Assembly (NCBI GenBank): GCA_026004935.1
Contig: BPKC01000001.1
Span: 2,023,491 to 2,087,490, forward strand
DNA: 64,000 nucleotides
Origin: Rhodothalassiaceae bacterium
GTDB taxonomy: Bacteria > Pseudomonadota > Alphaproteobacteria > Sphingomonadales > Rhodothalassiaceae
Direction of reading: 5' to 3'
The notes below the pieces were generated by a model. That model worked only from the letters and a program-made list of their open reading frames with translations. It had not been told where the DNA came from and searched no databases. A program made the translations under genes and the position numbers. Each line of letters begins with the position of its first letter. The stretch's first letter is position 1. Positions 28,761 through 39,633 of this stretch are shown in pieces.

Positions 28761-31700
28761 CTAGAACTCCACGGCGATCTGGGCGCGGGCGACGGGTCTG
28801 CCGTTTCCCCCCGTCGCGATCCCGCCCGAGACGATCAGGGATTCGCTCGGCCGGTGGGCGATGGTGAACCCGCCGGCGAGCCGCCCGCCGTAATAGCCGC
28901 CGCCGAATCCCACCACGGTGCGCCCCGGCTCGGACGGGGTGAGAACCGGCAGCGCTGCGACCCCCGCGATGCCGAAGGCGGCAAACCGCTCGACCCGGTA
29001 GGCCTCGCTGCGGGCGATGATCCGGGCGCTTTCGATGAGGCGCGAAAGGCTCGCATCCCCGCCCGGGCCCAGTCCCGCCATCATCGCCTGAACCTGCGCC
29101 AGATTGACGGCATCGGTCGGCTGGGTGGCCGGCGCGACATTCGTGATCCGCCGCTCCGCGCCGGGTGCGCCCACGGAGACGGTATCGGGCGCCGTCGTCA
29201 CCGAGCCGGCACCGAGCGCGACCGCATTGTCGTGGGTGGCCTCGGCGTTGTTGCCGAGCGCGACGGCAAACGCTCCGGAGGCAACGGCGGCGTCGCCAAT
29301 TGCGGTCGTCTTCAGGCCGAGCGCCTGGGCGCCCGCACCCACCGCCACGGAAGACTGGGCGACCGCTCCCATGCCGATCGCCACCGAGCCTTCCGCCCCG
29401 GCGGACGCGCTGTCCCCGATCGCCACGCCGCCGGTGGCGGCGACGCTGCTCTCGGCCCCGATCGCGATCCCCGATTCCGCGCCCTGTGCGACGTGGCCGC
29501 CCGCAAGCTGCACCCTTCTCCCGCAGGCGATGCCCTCGGCCGAGAGCGTGCACAGGCCCGCCGCGAAGAGTTCGTTCACGGTCTCCGCCAGCCGGTTGAG
29601 CGTCTCCTCCGCCTTCTGGTCGACGGCATCGAGCTGGCCCTTGTTGACGGCGTCATCCGGCGCCACGCCATCGGCCACGCCCGAGATCCGGCCCGCATTG
29701 GTGATCCCCCCGCCTGAAACGTCGAGGCTGGCGAAATGCGCATCGACCGTGCCGTCGGTGAGCCCGTTCGCCGCGGCCTGGGCCAGGTCCTTCGCCTCGT
29801 TCGCGGTGCTGAGCGCCGTATCCGCCTTGGCATCGGCCGCCTGCGCGGTGGTCAGCGCCTGATCCGCGGTGGCCTGGGCGCTGTTTGCGGCGTTGAGCGC
29901 CTGATCCGCCGTCGCCTGTGCGCTCGCCGCGAGGTCGATGGCGGAATCGGCGCTCGCCTGGGCGGCGCCGGCGGCGCTCTGGGCATCCTGCGCCGCCGCA
30001 AGAGCCGAGTCGGCGGTCGCCTGGGCGGCATCCGCGCTCGCCTGCGCGGCGTCCGCCGTGCCCTGGGCCGCGGCGGCACTTGCGGCGACCGCATCGAGCT
30101 GGCCCTTGTTGACGGCGTCCGTGGCGTTGACACCGGCGGCGAGATTGGTGAGCCGGCGTTCCGCGCCGCTGGCGCCGATCGAGACGGTGTCCGCCTCGTC
30201 CGCGACCGAGCCGTTGCCCAGCGCCACCGCGTTGTCGGCCGTCGCCCGCGCATTGTTGCCGAGCGCGACGGCGAACGCCCCCGAGGCGAGCGCCAGATCG
30301 CCGAGCGCCGTGGTGTTGGTGCCGAGCGCCTGGGCCCCCGTGCCGACGGCGACCGAAGACTGCGCAATCGCGCCGGCACCGATGGCCACGGAATTCGCTT
30401 CCACCGCGCGCGCGTCGCGGCCGACCGCGATGCCGCCGGAGGACTGGACATCGGCGTTCTGTCCGATCGCGATGCCGTCGCTGGCGCCGGCCGCGACCTG
30501 CCCGCCGGCAAGCTGGACGGTGCTCGCGCAGCTCACCGTCCCGCCCGTGATGCTGCACAGGCCGCTTTGAAGAAGCTGGTTGATCGCCGTCTGCAGGTTC
30601 GCGAGTGCCGTCCCCGCGTTGCTCAGAGCGGCGTCCGCGGTGGTCTGGGCGGTCGCGGCGTCCTGCACCGCCTGATCGGCCGTAGCCTGGGCCGCGGCGA
30701 CGTTCTGGTTCGTCGCGAACAGCTGCGCCCCGTTGACCGCCTCGGTCGAGTCGGCGCTGACCGTCCCGGCCGCCACGCCGCTGATGACCCCAGCATTGGT
30801 GATCCCGCCGCTGCCGACATCGAGCGACTGGAACCGCGCCGCCACCGTACCGCTGGTGAAATTCGCCAACGCCTGGGCCGCCTCCGCCTCAGCGGCATCC
30901 GCCGTCGTCTGCGCGGCCGCGGCGCTTGCCGCCACCTGGTCGAGCTGGCCCTTGTTGACGGCATCGGTGGCATTGACGCCATCGGCCAGATGCGTGAGCC
31001 GCCGCTCCGCGCCCGCCGTCCCGATCGAGACCGTATTGTCCGCATCCGTCACCGAGCCCGCACCGATCGCCACGCTGTTCGCATGCAGGGCCTGTGCGCC
31101 GGCGCCGAGAGCAAGCCCGTTGCCCATCGTCACAAGAGAGCCGAACCCGAGTGCCAGGCTTCCGGCGGCACCGGCCCGGGATCCGGTGCCGATCGCGATG
31201 GCGTTGTCGGCACCGTCCGCGACGAAGACGTCATGCCCGATCGCGATCGCGGCACCGGCACCCGCACCGCCGCTGGTGCCGATCCGCGCGCCCGTGGCCG
31301 CATCCGACCCGGCCCCGAGCGCCAGCGAAAAGTCGGACGCCGTGCCCTGCACCCGACTCTGGGCGCCGAGCGCCAGCGTAAAGTCGCCGGCCGCAATGCT
31401 GGTCCACCCCAGGGCGATCGCCGCCTGCCCGAGCGCCTGGTTCAGGCTGCCGAGCGCCAGCCCGTCCAGTCCGGACGCCATGTTGCCGAAACCCAGGGCC
31501 GTCGCGTTGAGCGCATTGGCGATGCTGGCGGATCCCACGGCGGTCGCATTGTCGGCCAGCGCCTGGTTGAAGGAGCCGAGGGCGGTGCTTGCCACGGCTT
31601 GAGATTTGTTGCCGAAGCCTGCCGCCAGCGAGCGCGTGCTTGTCGCCGTGTTCGCGCGGCCGAAGGCGGAAGCGTTGTTGCCGTTGACGGTGTTCTCGAG

Positions 31701-31898
31701 GCCGACGGCGATCGACTGGCCGTTGCTTGCGATGTTGTCCTTCCCGCAGACGAAGCTGCCGGGCCCGACCATGCTCCCCGCCTTGCGCGAGGTCGCGTCG
31801 CAATCCTCCGTCGCCGACGCCGGGCCCTGCGCGAGCACCTGACCGATCACGGCCAGCATGCCCGCACAGATCAGCCTGCGGCTGAAGTCCGCCCCCAT
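28761..31898 (-). CDS. Trimeric autotransporter adhesin (YadA-like)
   Basis: A 1045-residue surface protein. Residues 1-29 are a signal peptide (ASA end). The head consists of many YadA-type head repeats (short motifs such as AIGLENT, ALGSFNQA, AVGSASIA) that fold as a left-handed beta roll. Neck motifs (VNATDAVNKGQLD) occur three times and alternate with coiled-coil stalks very rich in Ala, Gln and Asp (AAQATADQA steps). The last 75 residues form the membrane anchor (four strands, terminal VEF). The start has GAGGCGAGGGG upstream. Role: adhesion, autoagglutination or biofilm. It lies upstream of asnO on the same strand with a 213-bp gap, so co-transcription is doubtful. Confidence 0.92.
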   Translation of the reverse strand: MGADFSRRLICAGMLAVIGQVLAQGPASATEDCDATSRKAGSMVGPGSFVCGKDNIASNGQSIAVGLENTVNGNNASAFGRANTATSTRSLAAGFGNKSQAVASTALGSFNQALADNATAVGSASIANALNATALGFGNMASGLDGLALGSLNQALGQAAIALGWTSIAAGDFTLALGAQSRVQGTASDFSLALGAGSDAATGARIGTSGGAGAGAAIAIGHDVFVADGADNAIAIGTGSRAGAAGSLALGFGSLVTMGNGLALGAGAQALHANSVAIGAGSVTDADNTVSIGTAGAERRLTHLADGVNATDAVNKGQLDQVAASAAAAQTTADAAEAEAAQALANFTSGTVAARFQSLDVGSGGITNAGVISGVAAGTVSADSTEAVNGAQLFATNQNVAAAQATADQAVQDAATAQTTADAALSNAGTALANLQTAINQLLQSGLCSITGGTVSCASTVQLAGGQVAAGASDGIAIGQNADVQSSGGIAVGRDARAVEANSVAIGAGAIAQSSVAVGTGAQALGTNTTALGDLALASGAFAVALGNNARATADNAVALGNGSVADEADTVSIGASGAERRLTNLAAGVNATDAVNKGQLDAVAASAAAAQGTADAAQASADAAQATADSALAAAQDAQSAAGAAQASADSAIDLAASAQATADQALNAANSAQATADQALTTAQAADAKADTALSTANEAKDLAQAAANGLTDGTVDAHFASLDVSGGGITNAGRISGVADGVAPDDAVNKGQLDAVDQKAEETLNRLAETVNELFAAGLCTLSAEGIACGRRVQLAGGHVAQGAESGIAIGAESSVAATGGVAIGDSASAGAEGSVAIGMGAVAQSSVAVGAGAQALGLKTTAIGDAAVASGAFAVALGNNAEATHDNAVALGAGSVTTAPDTVSVGAPGAERRITNVAPATQPTDAVNLAQVQAMMAGLGPGGDASLSRLIESARIIARSEAYRVERFAAFGIAGVAALPVLTPSEPGRTVVGFGGGYYGGRLAGGFTIAHRPSESLIVSGGIATGGNGRPVARAQIAVEF

Positions 31899-33907: not shown

Positions 33908-34195
33908 ATGTCCATAGACCGCGGCACGGTGACGAAGATCGCGCAGCTTGCGCGCATCCGCCTCGACGAGGACGAGGCGGCCCGGCTCGAAGGGGAGCTC
34001 AAGCGGATTCTCGACTGGGTGGCGGCGCTCCAGGCCGTGGACACGGAGGGCGTGGAGCCGCTGTCCAGCGTCGTCGGCACGCGGCTGCGCTGGCGCGCGG
34101 ACGAGGTGACCGACGGCAATTGCCGCGAGGACATCCTCGCCAACGCGCCCGAGCGGGTCGACGGCTTCTTCGCCGTGCCCAAGGTGATCGAGTAG
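33908..34195 (+). CDS. gatC: Aspartyl/glutamyl-tRNA(Asn/Gln) amidotransferase subunit C
   Basis: A 95-residue GatC, the small stabilising subunit of the GatCAB amidotransferase that converts Glu-tRNA(Gln) or Asp-tRNA(Asn) to the amidated form. Typical start (VTKIAQLARIRLDEDE) and the conserved RADEV...ANAPERVDGFFAVPKV tail, which wraps around GatA. It precedes gatA by 9 bp. Confidence 0.95.
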   Translation: MSIDRGTVTKIAQLARIRLDEDEAARLEGELKRILDWVAALQAVDTEGVEPLSSVVGTRLRWRADEVTDGNCREDILANAPERVDGFFAVPKVIE

Positions 34196-34204
34196 GACGC
34201 GGCG

Positions 34205-35692
34205 ATGACGGATCTGACGGAACTCGGCGTCGTCGAAGGCCGCGATCTTCTGCGCCGGCGCGAGATTTCGGCGCGGGAATGGACGGCGGCGCTCTTGGAC
34301 GAGATCGCGGCCGCCGCCCCGCTCAACGCCTTCCTTGCGGTCGATGCGGAGCATGCGCTCCGGATGGCGGATGCCGCCGATGCCGCGCTCGCGCGCGGCG
34401 ACGACCGGCTGCTCACCGGCGTGCCGATCGCGGTCAAGGACCTCTTCTGCACGAAGGGCCTGCGCACCACGGCCGGCTCGCGCATCCTCGAGAACTTCGT
34501 GCCGACCTATGAGAGCACGGTCACCGCCAATCTCTGGGCGGCGGGCGCGGTGATGCTGGGCAAGACCAACATGGACGAGTTCGCGATGGGCTCGTCCAAC
34601 GAAAACAGCGCCTTCGGCCCCGTGCGTGGGCCCTGGCGCGACCGCGAGGGCCGGCCGCTCGTGCCCGGCGGTTCCTCGGGCGGCTCGGCGGCGGCGGTGG
34701 CGGCGCGCATCGCCCCGGCCGCGACCGCCAGCGACACCGGCGGCTCGATCCGCCAGCCGGCGGCCTTCACCGGCACCGTCGGCATCAAGCCGACCTACGG
34801 GCGCTGCTCGCGCTGGGGGATGGTCGCCTTCGCCTCCTCGCTGGACCAGGCGGGGCCCATCGCGCGCTCGGTCGCCGATGCGGCGCTCGTGTTGCAGGCG
34901 ATGGCGGGCTTTGATGAGAGGGATTCGACCAGCGCGGAGGTGCCGGTGCCGGATCTGCTGGCGGCGCTGGAGCGCGGGGTCAAGGGGCTCGTCGTCGGCG
35001 TGCCGCGGGAATACCGCGCCGACGACATGCCGGCGGCGATCACCGCGATGTGGGAGGCGGGGATCGCCTGGCTGAAGGAGGCGGGCGCCGAGATCCGCGA
35101 GGTGAGCCTGCCGCATACGCAGGTGGCGCTGCCCACCTACTACATCATCGCCCCCGCCGAGGCGTCCTCCAATCTCGCGCGCTATGACGGCGTGCGCTAC
35201 GGCCTGCGCGTGATGCCGCACGAGGACGCCTCGCTCACCGGGATGTACGAGGCGACCCGCGGCGCCGGCTTCGGCGCGGAGGTCAAGCGGCGCGTGATGA
35301 TCGGCACCTATGTGCTCTCGGCGGGCTATTATGACGCCTATTATCTGAAGGCCCAGAAGGTGCGGGCGCTGATCAGGGCGGATTTCGACGCTGCCTTCCG
35401 GGAGGTCGACCTGCTGCTCACCCCGACGGCGCCGTCGGCGGCCTTCCCGCTGGGCGGGCGGCCCGATCCGATCGCGATGTATTACAACGACGTCTTCACC
35501 GTGCCGGCCTCGCTGGCGGGGCTGCCGGCGATCTCGGTGCCGGCGGGCACCGACGAGGCGGGCCTGCCGCTGGGCCTTCAGCTCATCGCCCGGGCCTTCG
35601 ACGAGGAAACCCTGGTGGCGGGCGCCCGCGTCATCGAACGCGCGGCCGCCTTCTCCGCCCGCCCCGAGCCCTGGTGGAAGCGGGAGGGCTGA
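34205..35692 (+). CDS. gatA: Glutamyl-tRNA(Gln) amidotransferase subunit A
   Basis: A 495-residue amidase-signature enzyme that releases ammonia from glutamine for tRNA amidation. The Ser-cisSer-Lys triad is complete: K78 in [10 protein letters not shown], the cis-Ser in [10 protein letters not shown] (157/158) and the nucleophile S181 in [11 protein letters not shown]. Length and motif order match canonical GatA. gatB normally follows directly, but here an AT-rich island of about 2.2 kb intervenes. Confidence 0.96.
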
Positions 35693-35740
35693 CCCTCTCA
35701 CGCCCTTGTTCTCAGATTTTCCTTGTCCGCTTAAACTATA

Positions 35741-35767
35741 GTTGGCGGCACCAACGCCTCCTTTTTT
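35741..35767 (+). terminator. Possible weak terminator after gatA
   Basis: GTTGG-CGGCA-CCAAC (35741-35755) is a 5-bp hairpin followed by GCCTCC and a six-T run at 35762-35767. It could end gatCA transcription before the inserted island. The stem is short and separated from the T run, so this is tentative. Confidence 0.3.
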
Positions 35768-35796
35768 GTGGGACTTGCCGCAAAGATGTAATGAAA

Positions 35797-37815
35797 TTAA
35801 TCGTCGGTGAAAAAGCTTTTTCCAGAAATCCCCACTCTGTCAAAAAAGGCTTGGTTCCGTGCGTGCGCATCCTTCAGCAACGAATCCCATCCTCGAAGCT
35901 CGATAAATCCTTGAAAGCCATCTCTCGGGTAATACACTCTTCCCTGCCCGTCTGCAGTCCTCTGCCATGTTGCAGTCCACTCGTCCATCTTTCCAATGAT
36001 GTCGGCAACAACATAGCAATAAAAAATACTACTTTTCGTAATCGCAATCGGCCTTCCACGAATATCCTTCAGTTTCCCATTTTGCATTTTCGTAATATAC
36101 TTATGTATTTGAAATTGCGGATTTTCTCCATCAGCATATTCCTCTCTCCCAGGTCTTTTAAATTCCACGAGCAATATCTTCGCATCATCAGCGGAGTGCC
36201 TAAGGCTATGCACATAATCAAATATCAAAATATCCGGCCGCGCCTTGTCTCCGCCTTCGGCCATTACTTTTTCCAACTCGATGTCCGAACTGAAATATTC
36301 AGCAAATGCCAATCTTTCATCGACAATCCAAAGGTCATGTGATGCAGGACTCAGTTCAGTGTAGTCCACCCCCGGCCCGGAAGCGATCTTCATCGGGCAA
36401 ATAATGGAGTGTAATGTTTTTTCAACATGATATGACCAATCACCAGACGTTTGCACAACCTTCTGGATTAATATCCGCAATAGATCCAGAATTACTTTTC
36501 TCCTAACAACGTACTCAGCTAAACTCCTCTGCTCTTCGGATTGAATACTCTCTTTCGCCCGAGCCAGTGCCAATTCAAAATCTTTAAAATTAAAAGCACC
36601 GCGTTTTAAACAATCTAGAACTTCTTTAATTTCTTCAAATTGTCTTTTATTCCTCCGGTATCTCTCTCTTGAAAGGTGTCCGTAAATCGCGTCTTCGTCA
36701 AGCTCACCCGTTGGTATTTTGTTTCTTAACTCATCTGGATGTGCGAAAGCGACCGATGGATAGGTCTCTGTAATATTTTTAATTATTTTATTTTGTTTAT
36801 TTTTTAACATTTCCAATGGTTCCGCAAGAAATTTCGCAATCTCCTGCATACAATACTCATTAATAATATGTTCGATAACTCTTTCTCCAAATAAAAAAGC
36901 TGTTCGCTCTTGATTTACATTTTGATCCATATACGCTCCAGTCAATATTGCATGAAACACCCTATCACTATTTTGACCAAACACCTTCAATCCCAATTTC
37001 GCGTCAATACAATGCGAGTGCACAGTCCTATCGTGAGCCACAAAATGCACGAAATTTGACCCCTTAAGATCAGAACTGGCTATCCTATCACATTCCATGA
37101 GCGTCAATTCTAAAATACCATATTTATCGGTGGTTATCTTAATATTTCTTTCGTCACGCTTTATTATGTTGTTGATCTCGCTTGGATATTCTCGCTCATC
37201 GCCGTTGACATTTACAATTATTTTCGGCGAACGACCGCTGATAAAAGTAGGTAGGAAATGTGAAGTGATATGTTGAGATATATATTCTTTTCGACCTGGA
37301 AATTTTTCTCGATATTTTGGGTGCCGAAGACCATAAAATTGGATTTTAAACCCAGTTTCTGACGCGCTTGGCTGCTCTATTACTTTTTCATCTTTTATCT
37401 GATCCATTTGATCTAGTACAAATCGAAATTTTCTGAGCTTAAGTGAACCGTCCTTTTGAAAAACCGATTCGATCTCTATATTTTCAAAGCAGTCTAGCCA
37501 CAATAAACGTCCAATTCCTTTTCCGCCAATTGCAATCTTATTGTCGGTATCTGTCGTCAGAAATGCTTCCCAATTTTTTTCGTTTAGACCAATTCCATTA
37601 TCGGTAACTGTCGCGGACACGCTATCTTTTCTTCTCTTTGTCGATATTTCTACATTGATACGTCCTTTCTCAGACACCTCGTCGCCAAATTTTTCTTGAG
37701 TGGAGTGAATCGCATTGCTAATAGCTTCAAATAAAGGTTGCAATGCGCCTGCAACATTTGTTGGCTTTGGGAGTCGTTCGATTCGCTTTACGATATTTGA
37801 TCGCAGTGCAGTCAT
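35797..37815 (-). CDS. GHKL ATPase with C-terminal PD-(D/E)XK-like nuclease motif (candidate defence protein)
   Basis: A 672-residue protein read against the gat genes. The N-terminal GHKL (Hsp90/MutL-type) ATPase has the N box LFEAISNAIHS (E30, N34), DNGIG at 72-76 and the glycine-rich GGKGIGR at about 97-103. The middle (about 330-450) is helical and charged. The C-terminus shows the spacing of a PD-(D/E)XK nuclease: D528 in ARPDILIF, E551-x-K553 in LLVEFKRP, and Q567/Q569 in NPQFQIHKYI. The VEFKRP block resembles Shedu-type (DUF4263-like) nucleases. The gene is strikingly AT-rich compared with its 70%-GC surroundings, uses different codons, and has no transposase nearby. AAAGGAG lies upstream of ATG 37815. 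Stand-alone anti-phage function is inference. Confidence 0.82.
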   Translation of the reverse strand: MTALRSNIVKRIERLPKPTNVAGALQPLFEAISNAIHSTQEKFGDEVSEKGRINVEISTKRRKDSVSATVTDNGIGLNEKNWEAFLTTDTDNKIAIGGKGIGRLLWLDCFENIEIESVFQKDGSLKLRKFRFVLDQMDQIKDEKVIEQPSASETGFKIQFYGLRHPKYREKFPGRKEYISQHITSHFLPTFISGRSPKIIVNVNGDEREYPSEINNIIKRDERNIKITTDKYGILELTLMECDRIASSDLKGSNFVHFVAHDRTVHSHCIDAKLGLKVFGQNSDRVFHAILTGAYMDQNVNQERTAFLFGERVIEHIINEYCMQEIAKFLAEPLEMLKNKQNKIIKNITETYPSVAFAHPDELRNKIPTGELDEDAIYGHLSRERYRRNKRQFEEIKEVLDCLKRGAFNFKDFELALARAKESIQSEEQRSLAEYVVRRKVILDLLRILIQKVVQTSGDWSYHVEKTLHSIICPMKIASGPGVDYTELSPASHDLWIVDERLAFAEYFSSDIELEKVMAEGGDKARPDILIFDYVHSLRHSADDAKILLVEFKRPGREEYADGENPQFQIHKYITKMQNGKLKDIRGRPIAITKSSIFYCYVVADIIGKMDEWTATWQRTADGQGRVYYPRDGFQGFIELRGWDSLLKDAHARNQAFFDRVGISGKSFFTDD

Positions 37816-38145
37816 CGCACCACGCTCTCCTTTGTTGGCCCCTTAATAGCAATACCATAACTTTTTTGCGACCGCGGCTGCAACCCTCACCAGGGATACG
37901 AGAAGGTCGGCCCGTGCCATCGATCACCCTCTACCTCGTTGGCTGGCAGGCTTTATCCGCCCTTCGCCCATGCGGACATGAGATCATCTTGGCATGCTTT
38001 GCGGCCTCCCGCAACTGGCCGCCTTGCGGTGTCGTGGCGGGCGGGCTATGGAACGGCGGCCGCATCGGGAGCCGCGTTGGCGCTTGCGTTCTGCGGGCGG
38101 ATGGTGTGGTCGTGTTGCCGTCAGCGGATCGGAGATCGGTCGGCC
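37816..38145. other. 330-bp spacer between the island gene and gatB
   Basis: The left 70 bp are AT-rich like the island and hold its likely promoter; from about 37890 rightwards the GC content returns to host level. The right part probably contains the promoter or leader of gatB, but no box is clear. In-frame codons upstream of gatB ATG 38146 are open but unlike GatB. Confidence 0.5.
37854..37883 (-). promoter_or_regulatory. Putative sigma-70 promoter of the GHKL-nuclease gene
   Basis: On the minus strand TTGCAG (37878-37883) and TATGGT (37854-37859) are separated by 18 bp, and the -10 box lies 38 bp upstream of the ATG. The match is reasonable for a housekeeping promoter and sits in the AT-rich edge of the island. 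Confidence 0.35.
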
Positions 38146-39633
38146 ATGGGTGCATACGTGATCGAAGGGGCGAGCGGGCCGTGGGAGATCGTCGTGGGCA
38201 TGGAGGTGCATGCCCAGGTGATCTCGCGCGCCAAGCTGTTCTCGGGGGCGGCCACCGACTTCGGCGCCGAGCCGAACACCCAGGTCAGCCTCGTGGATGC
38301 GGCGATGCCGGGCATGCTGCCGGTCGTCAACCGCGCATGCATCTTCCAGGCGGTGCGCACGGGGCTGGCGCTCAACGCGCGGATCAACAAGTGGTCGCGC
38401 TTCGACCGCAAGAACTATTTCTACCCGGATCTGCCCGCCGGCTATCAGATCAGCCAGTACAAACATCCCATCGTCGGCGAGGGCTTCGTCGAGATCACGC
38501 TTGCCGACGGCACGACGAAGAGGATCGGCATCGAGCGCCTGCACCTGGAGCAGGACGCGGGCAAGATGCTGCACGACCAGCATCCCCGCTGGTCGCTCGT
38601 CGATCTCAACCGCGCGGGCGTCGCGCTGATGGAGATCGTCTCCAGGCCCGACATCCGCTCGCCCGAGGAGGCCGGCGCCTATCTGCGCAAGCTGCGCACG
38701 CTGCTGCGCTACATCGGCTCCTGCGACGGCAACATGGAGCAGGGCTCGATGCGCGCCGACATCAACGTCTCGGTCCGCCGCCCGGGCGGGCCCTTCGGCA
38801 CCCGCTGCGAGATCAAGAACGTCAATTCCGTGCGCTTCGTGATGGCGGCGATCGAATACGAGGCGCGCCGGCAGGTGGAGATCCTGGAGGCCGGCGGCGC
38901 GATCGAGCAGGAAACGCGGCTCTTCGACCCGAACCGGATGGAGACGCGCTCCATGCGCTCGAAGGAGGAGGCGCATGACTACCGCTATTTCCCGGATCCG
39001 GACCTGCTGCCGCTGGAGCTCGACGACGCCTTCATCGAAGAGGCGCGCGCGAGCCTGCCCGAGATGCCGGACGCCAAGCAGCACCGCTACCAGGAGGAGT
39101 GGGGGCTGACGGCCTACAACGCCGCCACCATCGTCACCGAGCGCGAGGCGGCCGAGTATTTCGAGGCGGTGGTGGCGGCTCTTGCGAAGGCCACCGGCAG
39201 GCCGGAGGCGGAAGTCGCCAACCGGGCGGCAAACTGGGTGCTCGCCGATCTCTTCGGGCATCTGAACAAGGCCGGGCTTGCGATCACGGAAAGCCCCGTC
39301 AGCGCCGCACAGGGGGCGGAGCTGCTGGCGCTGGTCGACAAGGGCGCGATCTCGGGCCGGGTCGCCAAGGAAGTGTTCGAGGAGATGTTCGCCTCAGGCC
39401 GCGGCGCGGCCGAGATCGTCGAGGAGAAGGGGCTCACCCAGGTTTCCGACGAGGCGGCGCTCATCCCCGTCGTCGAGAAGGTGCTGGCCGACAATCCGGC
39501 GCAGGTCGAGCAGTATCGCGGCGGCAAGACGAAGGTGATCGGGTTCTTCGTCGGCCAGGTGATGAAGGCGACTCGCGGGCAGGCGAACCCCGCGGTCGTC
39601 AACCGCCTGCTCAAGGAGCGGCTCGACGCCTGA
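38146..39633 (+). CDS. gatB: Aspartyl/glutamyl-tRNA amidotransferase subunit B
   Basis: A 495-residue GatB, the subunit that binds and activates the misacylated tRNA with ATP. The start [15 protein letters not shown], metal/tunnel region ([15 protein letters not shown]), [17 protein letters not shown], and [12 protein letters not shown] are classical. The YqeY-like tail (last 150 residues) ends [26 protein letters not shown] 38146 is chosen by alignment to this start. Separated from gatA by an inserted gene of foreign composition, it must have its own promoter or be read through the island. Confidence 0.96.

Follow-up and report, generated by a model that had tools for sequence, protein, structure and literature searches.

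The closest described relatives of the gene analysed here belong to two groups. The paraMORC3 proteins defined by Iyer, Abhiman and Aravind in 2008 carry a GHKL domain, an S5 domain and a C-terminal endonuclease domain with an E-D-ExK motif, and according to the accessible part of that report some of their genes in proteobacteria are solitary, without conserved neighbours (PMC2292703). VcSduA of V. cholerae has a GHKL N-terminus and protects against phage, and the protection is lost with E27A or K557A; the accessible part of the source assigns it to Shedu type I-D (PMC12137116). As to the place of the gene, one or two lineage-specific genes are found between gatA and gatB in Caulobacter K31 and its relatives, and the available excerpts report that gatA and gatB of K31 are expressed from different promoters (PMC4221894).

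In the window, that is, the whole 64-kb stretch of DNA analysed, a single gene lies in reverse orientation between gatA and gatB. The four features of paraMORC3 that we tested, namely the GHKL ATP-binding motifs, S5, the E-D-ExK residues and the solitary gene, are all present. The architecture is alike, no difference being seen, and the location in gatCAB is the distinctive feature of the insert. With VcSduA, as far as it is described in the accessible text, the insert shares a single-gene layout, an N-terminal GHKL ATPase and a C-terminal PD-(D/E)xK domain, and the N-box Glu and the ExK Lys (E30/K553 in the insert, E27/K557 in VcSduA) correspond by number and motif rather than by alignment (PMC12137116). 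VcSduA is located on a variant of the VSP-II island whereas the insert is inside a core operon (PMC12137116, same text), and, in difference from Shedu, the family of the insert protein matches the SduA_C profile only weakly. The junction interrupted is the same as in the K31-type separation, for which the excerpts name the inserted genes as X, Y and Z (PMC4221894); the insert of the window encodes a GHKL ATPase-nuclease and faces the opposite way to gat. By these features the insert agrees with paraMORC3 as published, and it resembles VcSduA. We consider it likely that it is a horizontally acquired single gene of the paraMORC3 or GHKL-type Shedu kind, that it encodes an ATP-dependent defence nuclease, and that gatB is now read from its own promoter.

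The interrupted gat operon and its empty site

The gatC, gatA and gatB genes are all intact and run in one direction, and the adjacency of gatA and gatB is lost (Table 1). The sequence-only reading had placed the gap at 35693-38145, which is exact. These 2453 nt contain a single long ORF, on the minus strand; the second-longest one (222 aa, 35674-36342, plus strand) begins in the last codons of gatA and overlaps the 672-aa ORF in antisense. The claim that a foreign gene splits the operon, pointing against gatA and gatB, was borne out: GC of the insert is about 0.36-0.44 against about 0.70 on either side, there is no other such dip within the window, and the gene is present in one copy in its own genome.

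Table 1. Positions of the features of the gat locus in the window
Feature	Position	Strand	Remarks
gatC	33908-34195	+	95 aa; intact; from the ORF list; GatC matched in 29/29 relatives' loci examined
gatA	34205-35692	+	495 aa; intact; 77% identity to same-genus genome G001
Left spacer, gatA stop to insert stop (convergent genes)	35693-35796		Hairpin-like site 35741-35755 inside
Inserted gene, GHKL ATPase and predicted PD-(D/E)xK nuclease, paraMORC3 / GHKL-type Shedu-like	35797-37815	-	672 aa
Inserted gene, residues 1-333, GHKL and S5 ATPase module	36817-37815	-	E30, N34, D72, G74, G76, G100, G102
Inserted gene, residues 405-672, predicted nuclease part	35800-36603	-	E465, D528, E551xK553
Right spacer, 330 bp (insert gene and gatB divergent)	37816-38145		GC 0.60-0.74 past the first 50 nt
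GGAG, possible new gatB ribosome-binding site	38131-38134	+	11 nt before ATG; read from the sequence
gatB	38146-39633	+	495 aa; intact; PF02934 E 1.8e-119; start matched to relatives

The edges bear no recognisable mark of the insertion, as the sequence-only reading had stated. The repeat search gave no convincing pair of flanking direct or inverted repeats, and inspection of the gap's ORFs by eye revealed no transposase. Candidates for direct repeats or att-like ends were short pairs only, the longest being 22 nt at 73% with one copy in the insert gene and the other in the right spacer, and were rejected. Neither tandem repeats nor Rfam matches were found within 35400-38500. A source of the right spacer was also sought: no second copy was found in its own genome, and the six other genomes of the family hold matches of 16-40 nt only. 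Elsewhere in the window, a repeat-rich ORF of 1045 aa (28761-31898, minus strand) looks by eye like the head of a YadA-type trimeric autotransporter.

Comparison of synteny with close relatives (loci L003, L005, L006 and L007), which had been proposed as the check, revealed an empty site. Only 5 nt lie between the gatA stop and the gatB ATG in G001, a genome of the same genus, which identifies the split as a derived insertion. Within the family, two genomes of genus g2 also have a spacing of 5 nt, and in a third g2 genome the two genes overlap. Together, these spacings indicate that the insertion severed a tightly coupled gatB, which now follows 330 bp of other sequence; the ancestral ribosome-binding signal of gatB would have sat in the end of gatA. 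The sequence-only reading had held that relatives with gatA and gatB apart and no insert would speak against an insertion. Such separation is found in family f6 and in G003 of the same family, which lacks the insert gene and has gatA on contig C6 and gatB on C1, but not in G001 or the three g2 genomes. The gatA/gatB split in this lineage arose by insertion.

The gatA-gatB junction in other genomes and the expression of gatB

In 51 of 59 relatives, gatA and gatB are on one contig and strand. Their spacing is at most 50 nt in 40, 51-400 nt in five and 401-3000 nt in five, and in one they are 230 kb apart; every gap of 51-3000 nt, ten in total, comes from family f6. Among the other relatives, three have no counted gatA match and five have the genes on different contigs; of the latter, G020, G025 and G041 may reflect contig breaks whereas G003 and G052 look truly apart. 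In a class-wide draw of alphaproteobacteria, from which its own genome was excluded, both genes were found in 131 of 133 genomes (one gene was missing in two), on the same contig and strand in 117, on different contigs in 12 and on opposite strands in two. The gatA-gatB gap was at most 60 nt in 86 of the 117, 61-300 nt in 15 and 301-5000 nt in 16. The gatC-gatA junction of the same draw served as a control. It was found in 129 genomes, and in the 127 with both genes on one contig and strand the gap was at most 60 nt in 118, 61-300 nt in nine and longer in none. Interruptions of 301-5000 nt thus occur in 16/117 against 0/127 (Fisher P 4.4e-6, genomes treated as independent). Gaps in both surveys were measured between aligned ends rather than from stop to start, and in G486, where GatB and GatC were each matched twice, the nearer match was counted in either case.

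We read 19 gaps: 15 of the 16 class gaps (G498 was left out; G017, locus L096, is a member of the order) and four further order gaps, L097-L100. The genes run mainly with gat in 13, are ambiguous in five and face the reverse way in one, G460 (L152), where a cytochrome P450 lies in a 4.9-kb insert. The automatic calls were ambiguous for L096, L097, L099, L150 and L162; by eye, the ORF lists of L096 and L097 show long same-direction ORFs, sulfotransferase- and acyltransferase-like. Ten proteins were scanned, and those running with gat included a GNAT acetyltransferase, a member of the inositol-monophosphatase family, and DUF559 with a nucleotidyltransferase. In G504, from another alphaproteobacterial family, the junction holds a 584-aa AAA_15/AAA_21 ATPase (L156:1553-3304), and its gap is AT-rich (GC 0.30 against 0.45 in gatA). 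The protein resembles the ATPases of many PADLOC models (AriA, PtuA), as AAA proteins generally may do.

Splitting of gatA from gatB is therefore not new, and precedents exist. As an insertion place the junction is not rare; where the direction is clear, inserts mostly run with gat, and the opposite orientation is the rarer feature. We tentatively suggest, at somewhat less than an even chance, that lone genes moved horizontally, defence-type ATPases included, land recurrently at the gatA-gatB junction of Alphaproteobacteria, with gatC-gatA closed to them in the sample. If so, an operon essential for translation would also serve as a site of integration, and gatB would repeatedly gain a promoter of its own.

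The GlnRS model found no match above its cut-off in the bacterium's own genome (best match 75 bits, cut-off 426). Gln-tRNA(Gln) is therefore presumably made via GatCAB and GatB should be needed, and gatB is probably essential. GatB is equimolar with GatA in the heterotrimer, and the sequence-only reading had concluded that either a new gatB promoter lies at 37.9-38.1 kb or expression was rewired. Equimolar GatA and GatB need no shared transcript, since several relatives have the two genes apart or with an interruption between them, and different promoters are reported for them in K31. Rewired expression is plausible, and gatB is probably read from its own promoter inside the 330-bp spacer. A promoter at 37.9-38.1 kb is putative: the divergent spacer has room for one, and a scan for sigma-70-type promoters, which other promoter types escape, found no promoter-like site in it. 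All six promoter-like sites of the scan are within the insert gene, against 3.7 expected by shuffling. Given the empty scan, this is the least certain step of our proposal. A terminator after gatA was also sought and rejected: four hairpin-like sites lie in the region against 2.7 expected, and the one in the left spacer folds no better than shuffles.

For this step only, another explanation is that gatB still depends on gatCA transcription, by about 2 kb of antisense read-through that would lower expression of the insert as well. The lack of a promoter-like site in the spacer and of a demonstrated terminator after gatA agrees with it. However, the scan covered the sigma-70-type consensus only, and the excerpts available describe separate expression of the split gatA and gatB of K31 (PMC4221894), so we regard read-through as unlikely.

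The inserted protein

In Pfam, the N-terminal part matched HATPase_c with E 1.6e-5 and 25.7 bits, just below the curated cut-off of 26.4, and HATPase_c_3 more weakly; the rest of the protein had no Pfam match. HATPase_c was also matched, at E up to 0.1, in 17 of the 18 members of a first alignment, A1, which comprised 17 homologues and the window protein. For A1, 20 homologue loci were fetched, and L074 and L082 (interrupted or split) and L087 (a fragment) were dropped. The set was then enlarged to 45 members including the window protein; L131 and L144, which are partial, were dropped from 29 loci of a viral collection, and weaker or partial matches in the order (e.g. L051, L055-L062) were left out of both alignments. 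The seven N-terminal residues listed in Table 1, which we take to be the Bergerat-type ATPase motifs, are invariant in 45/45 members, window protein included.

The full-length predicted model has a mean pLDDT of 80.4. Its VIA alignments gave Z 19.2 to MORC2 (9cdh, 291 aligned) and Z 19.3 to Hsp90 (7z37), and those to MORC2, Hsp90 and TopoVI-B chains cover residues 1 to about 333, the second half of which, by our knowledge of these proteins, is presumably S5. The module belongs to the fold class of MORC, Hsp90 and MutL. A profile search of solved structures with the N-terminus likewise returned histidine kinases, Hsp90 and other GHKL proteins (best E 2.6e-4).

The C-terminal part is a predicted PD-(D/E)xK nuclease. 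The E-D-ExK residues E465, D528, E551 and K553 are invariant in 45/45 members, as are H469, H493, W496, D499, S510 and P555. Modelled alone, this part has a pLDDT of 80.3. Its best VIA row is E. coli SduA (8ps4_A; Z 8.2, 177 aligned, 4.8 A), and B. cereus Shedu (8ti9_C) gave Z 7.2; these Z values, about 8 at best, are modest, and other families of PD-(D/E)xK nucleases, nickases included, reach 7.3, within 1 of SduA. Foldseek alone ranked McrC first (E 9e-3) with no Shedu among the best 50 rows listed; Shedu appeared via VIA. The profile search of solved structures with the C-terminal part gave nothing significant (two matches, E 0.3 and 0.48). The insert protein did not match SduA_C of Pfam at E up to 1; two of the 45 members matched it weakly (best E 0.0015), and seven matched HSDR_N (best 6.2e-4). 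By hhalign, comparison with a five-protein SduA_C alignment gave P 6e-4 and a probability of 29%, and with the five proteins singly 0.4-12.6%. The modelled fold is suggestive of Shedu membership. No known defence model of PADLOC matched the protein, and members of A1 had stray weak matches only.

Probable mobility of the gene and its possible role

Of 396 genomes in the order, 30 (its own included) carry a homologue, several of these being weak or partial; no match was found in G001 or the other five genomes of the family, two of these six being less than 90% complete. On plasmids, 54 records have a homologue, of which 28 are predicted conjugative; the closest (56%) is on Agrobacterium plasmids, and in two plasmids viewed the homologue is near recombinase, integrase or replication genes. 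The viral collection gave 29 loci, and its closest homologue (60%), on a 5.7-kb contig, is the nearest full-length one found. An extra scan of that collection with one SduA_C domain gave one locus, which was left unused. Among phage records one, ON245412.1, has a homologue (L165:2485-4509); its annotation as N-acetylmuramoyl-L-alanine amidase looks like a wrong label. In 13 viral-collection loci viewed by eye, the homologues in L117, L123 and L116 adjoin lysis-, terminase- or protease-like genes, which suggests cargo (moron) positions.

In all of 19 homologue loci the gene is AT-richer than its surroundings, by at least 0.10 in nine, and by eye the neighbours vary. Homologues lie after lepA in L071 (GC 0.47 against 0.62), beside thiC in L082 and near rpsL in L084; in L068, L070 and L083 long co-directional neighbours may be partner or defence genes. 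AT-richness, varied neighbours and plasmid and viral contexts form the pattern of mobile single-gene cargo. Further observations concern single loci. The divergent homologues of L071 and L072, from different genera, are both near lepA, and lepA may mark a further site of repeated landing. Homologues at L082:6148-8126 and L074:638-2637 each fall into two ORFs, which may reflect gene decay or errors in the sequence. In Bosea lupini, an ORF (L033:5977-6333) that is 70% identical to residues 1-110 of the insert ends after 118 codons and is perhaps a gene fragment.

The viral contexts also raise the idea that the gene, with the same protein function, is what survives of a prophage or integrative element that was once larger and has lost its other genes. 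The nearest full-length homologue on a viral-collection contig and the homologues that adjoin phage-type genes are consistent with this. The gap, however, has one long gene, no att-like repeats and no phage gene recognised by eye, and several homologues elsewhere look solitary too, which makes a remnant rather improbable. A housekeeping or regulatory GHKL protein, such as a chaperone or mismatch-repair helper, taken up next to gat to serve in translation would account for the likeness of the module to Hsp90 and MutL and for the general HATPase_c as the best Pfam match; the presence in few genomes of the order and in none of the other family genomes searched, the fusion to a conserved nuclease motif, the homologues on plasmids and viral-collection contigs and their unconserved neighbours make it highly improbable. 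The sharp change in composition could also mark an assembly or binning artefact, which we dismiss as next to impossible given that the gat genes and the insert are inside a 2.9-Mb contig of a genome 100% complete with 0.01% contamination, and that gatA, gatB and the insert gene are open throughout.

We return to the defence nuclease, a reading that draws on the insertion and its empty site, the predicted domain folds, the invariant catalytic-type residues and the homologues on plasmids and in the viral collection. A mobile cargo gene would have arrived by horizontal transfer and landed in reverse orientation between gatA and gatB. Its product is probably a dimeric, ATP-dependent clamp, in which the GHKL-S5 module would bind ATP and sense, or close on, invading DNA or a phage protein. 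This would license the C-terminal PD-(D/E)xK domain, and phage or plasmid DNA would be cut. DNA cleavage, restriction of phage and the trigger are here extrapolated by analogy with VcSduA. The insertion would have ended the close coupling of gatB to gatA, and gatB would then have a promoter to itself, inside the divergent spacer, and a new ribosome-binding site.

In conclusion, a gene with no family match beyond a general ATPase domain becomes, by analogy, a probable anti-phage system made of one gene; the 2023 models of PADLOC did not name its class in this case. An operon whose heterotrimeric product is probably essential accommodates an insert that faces the other way. The useful additions to the known splits are the identity of the inserted gene and the contrast between the two gat junctions, which offers a small and testable example of the places at which bacteria take in foreign genes.
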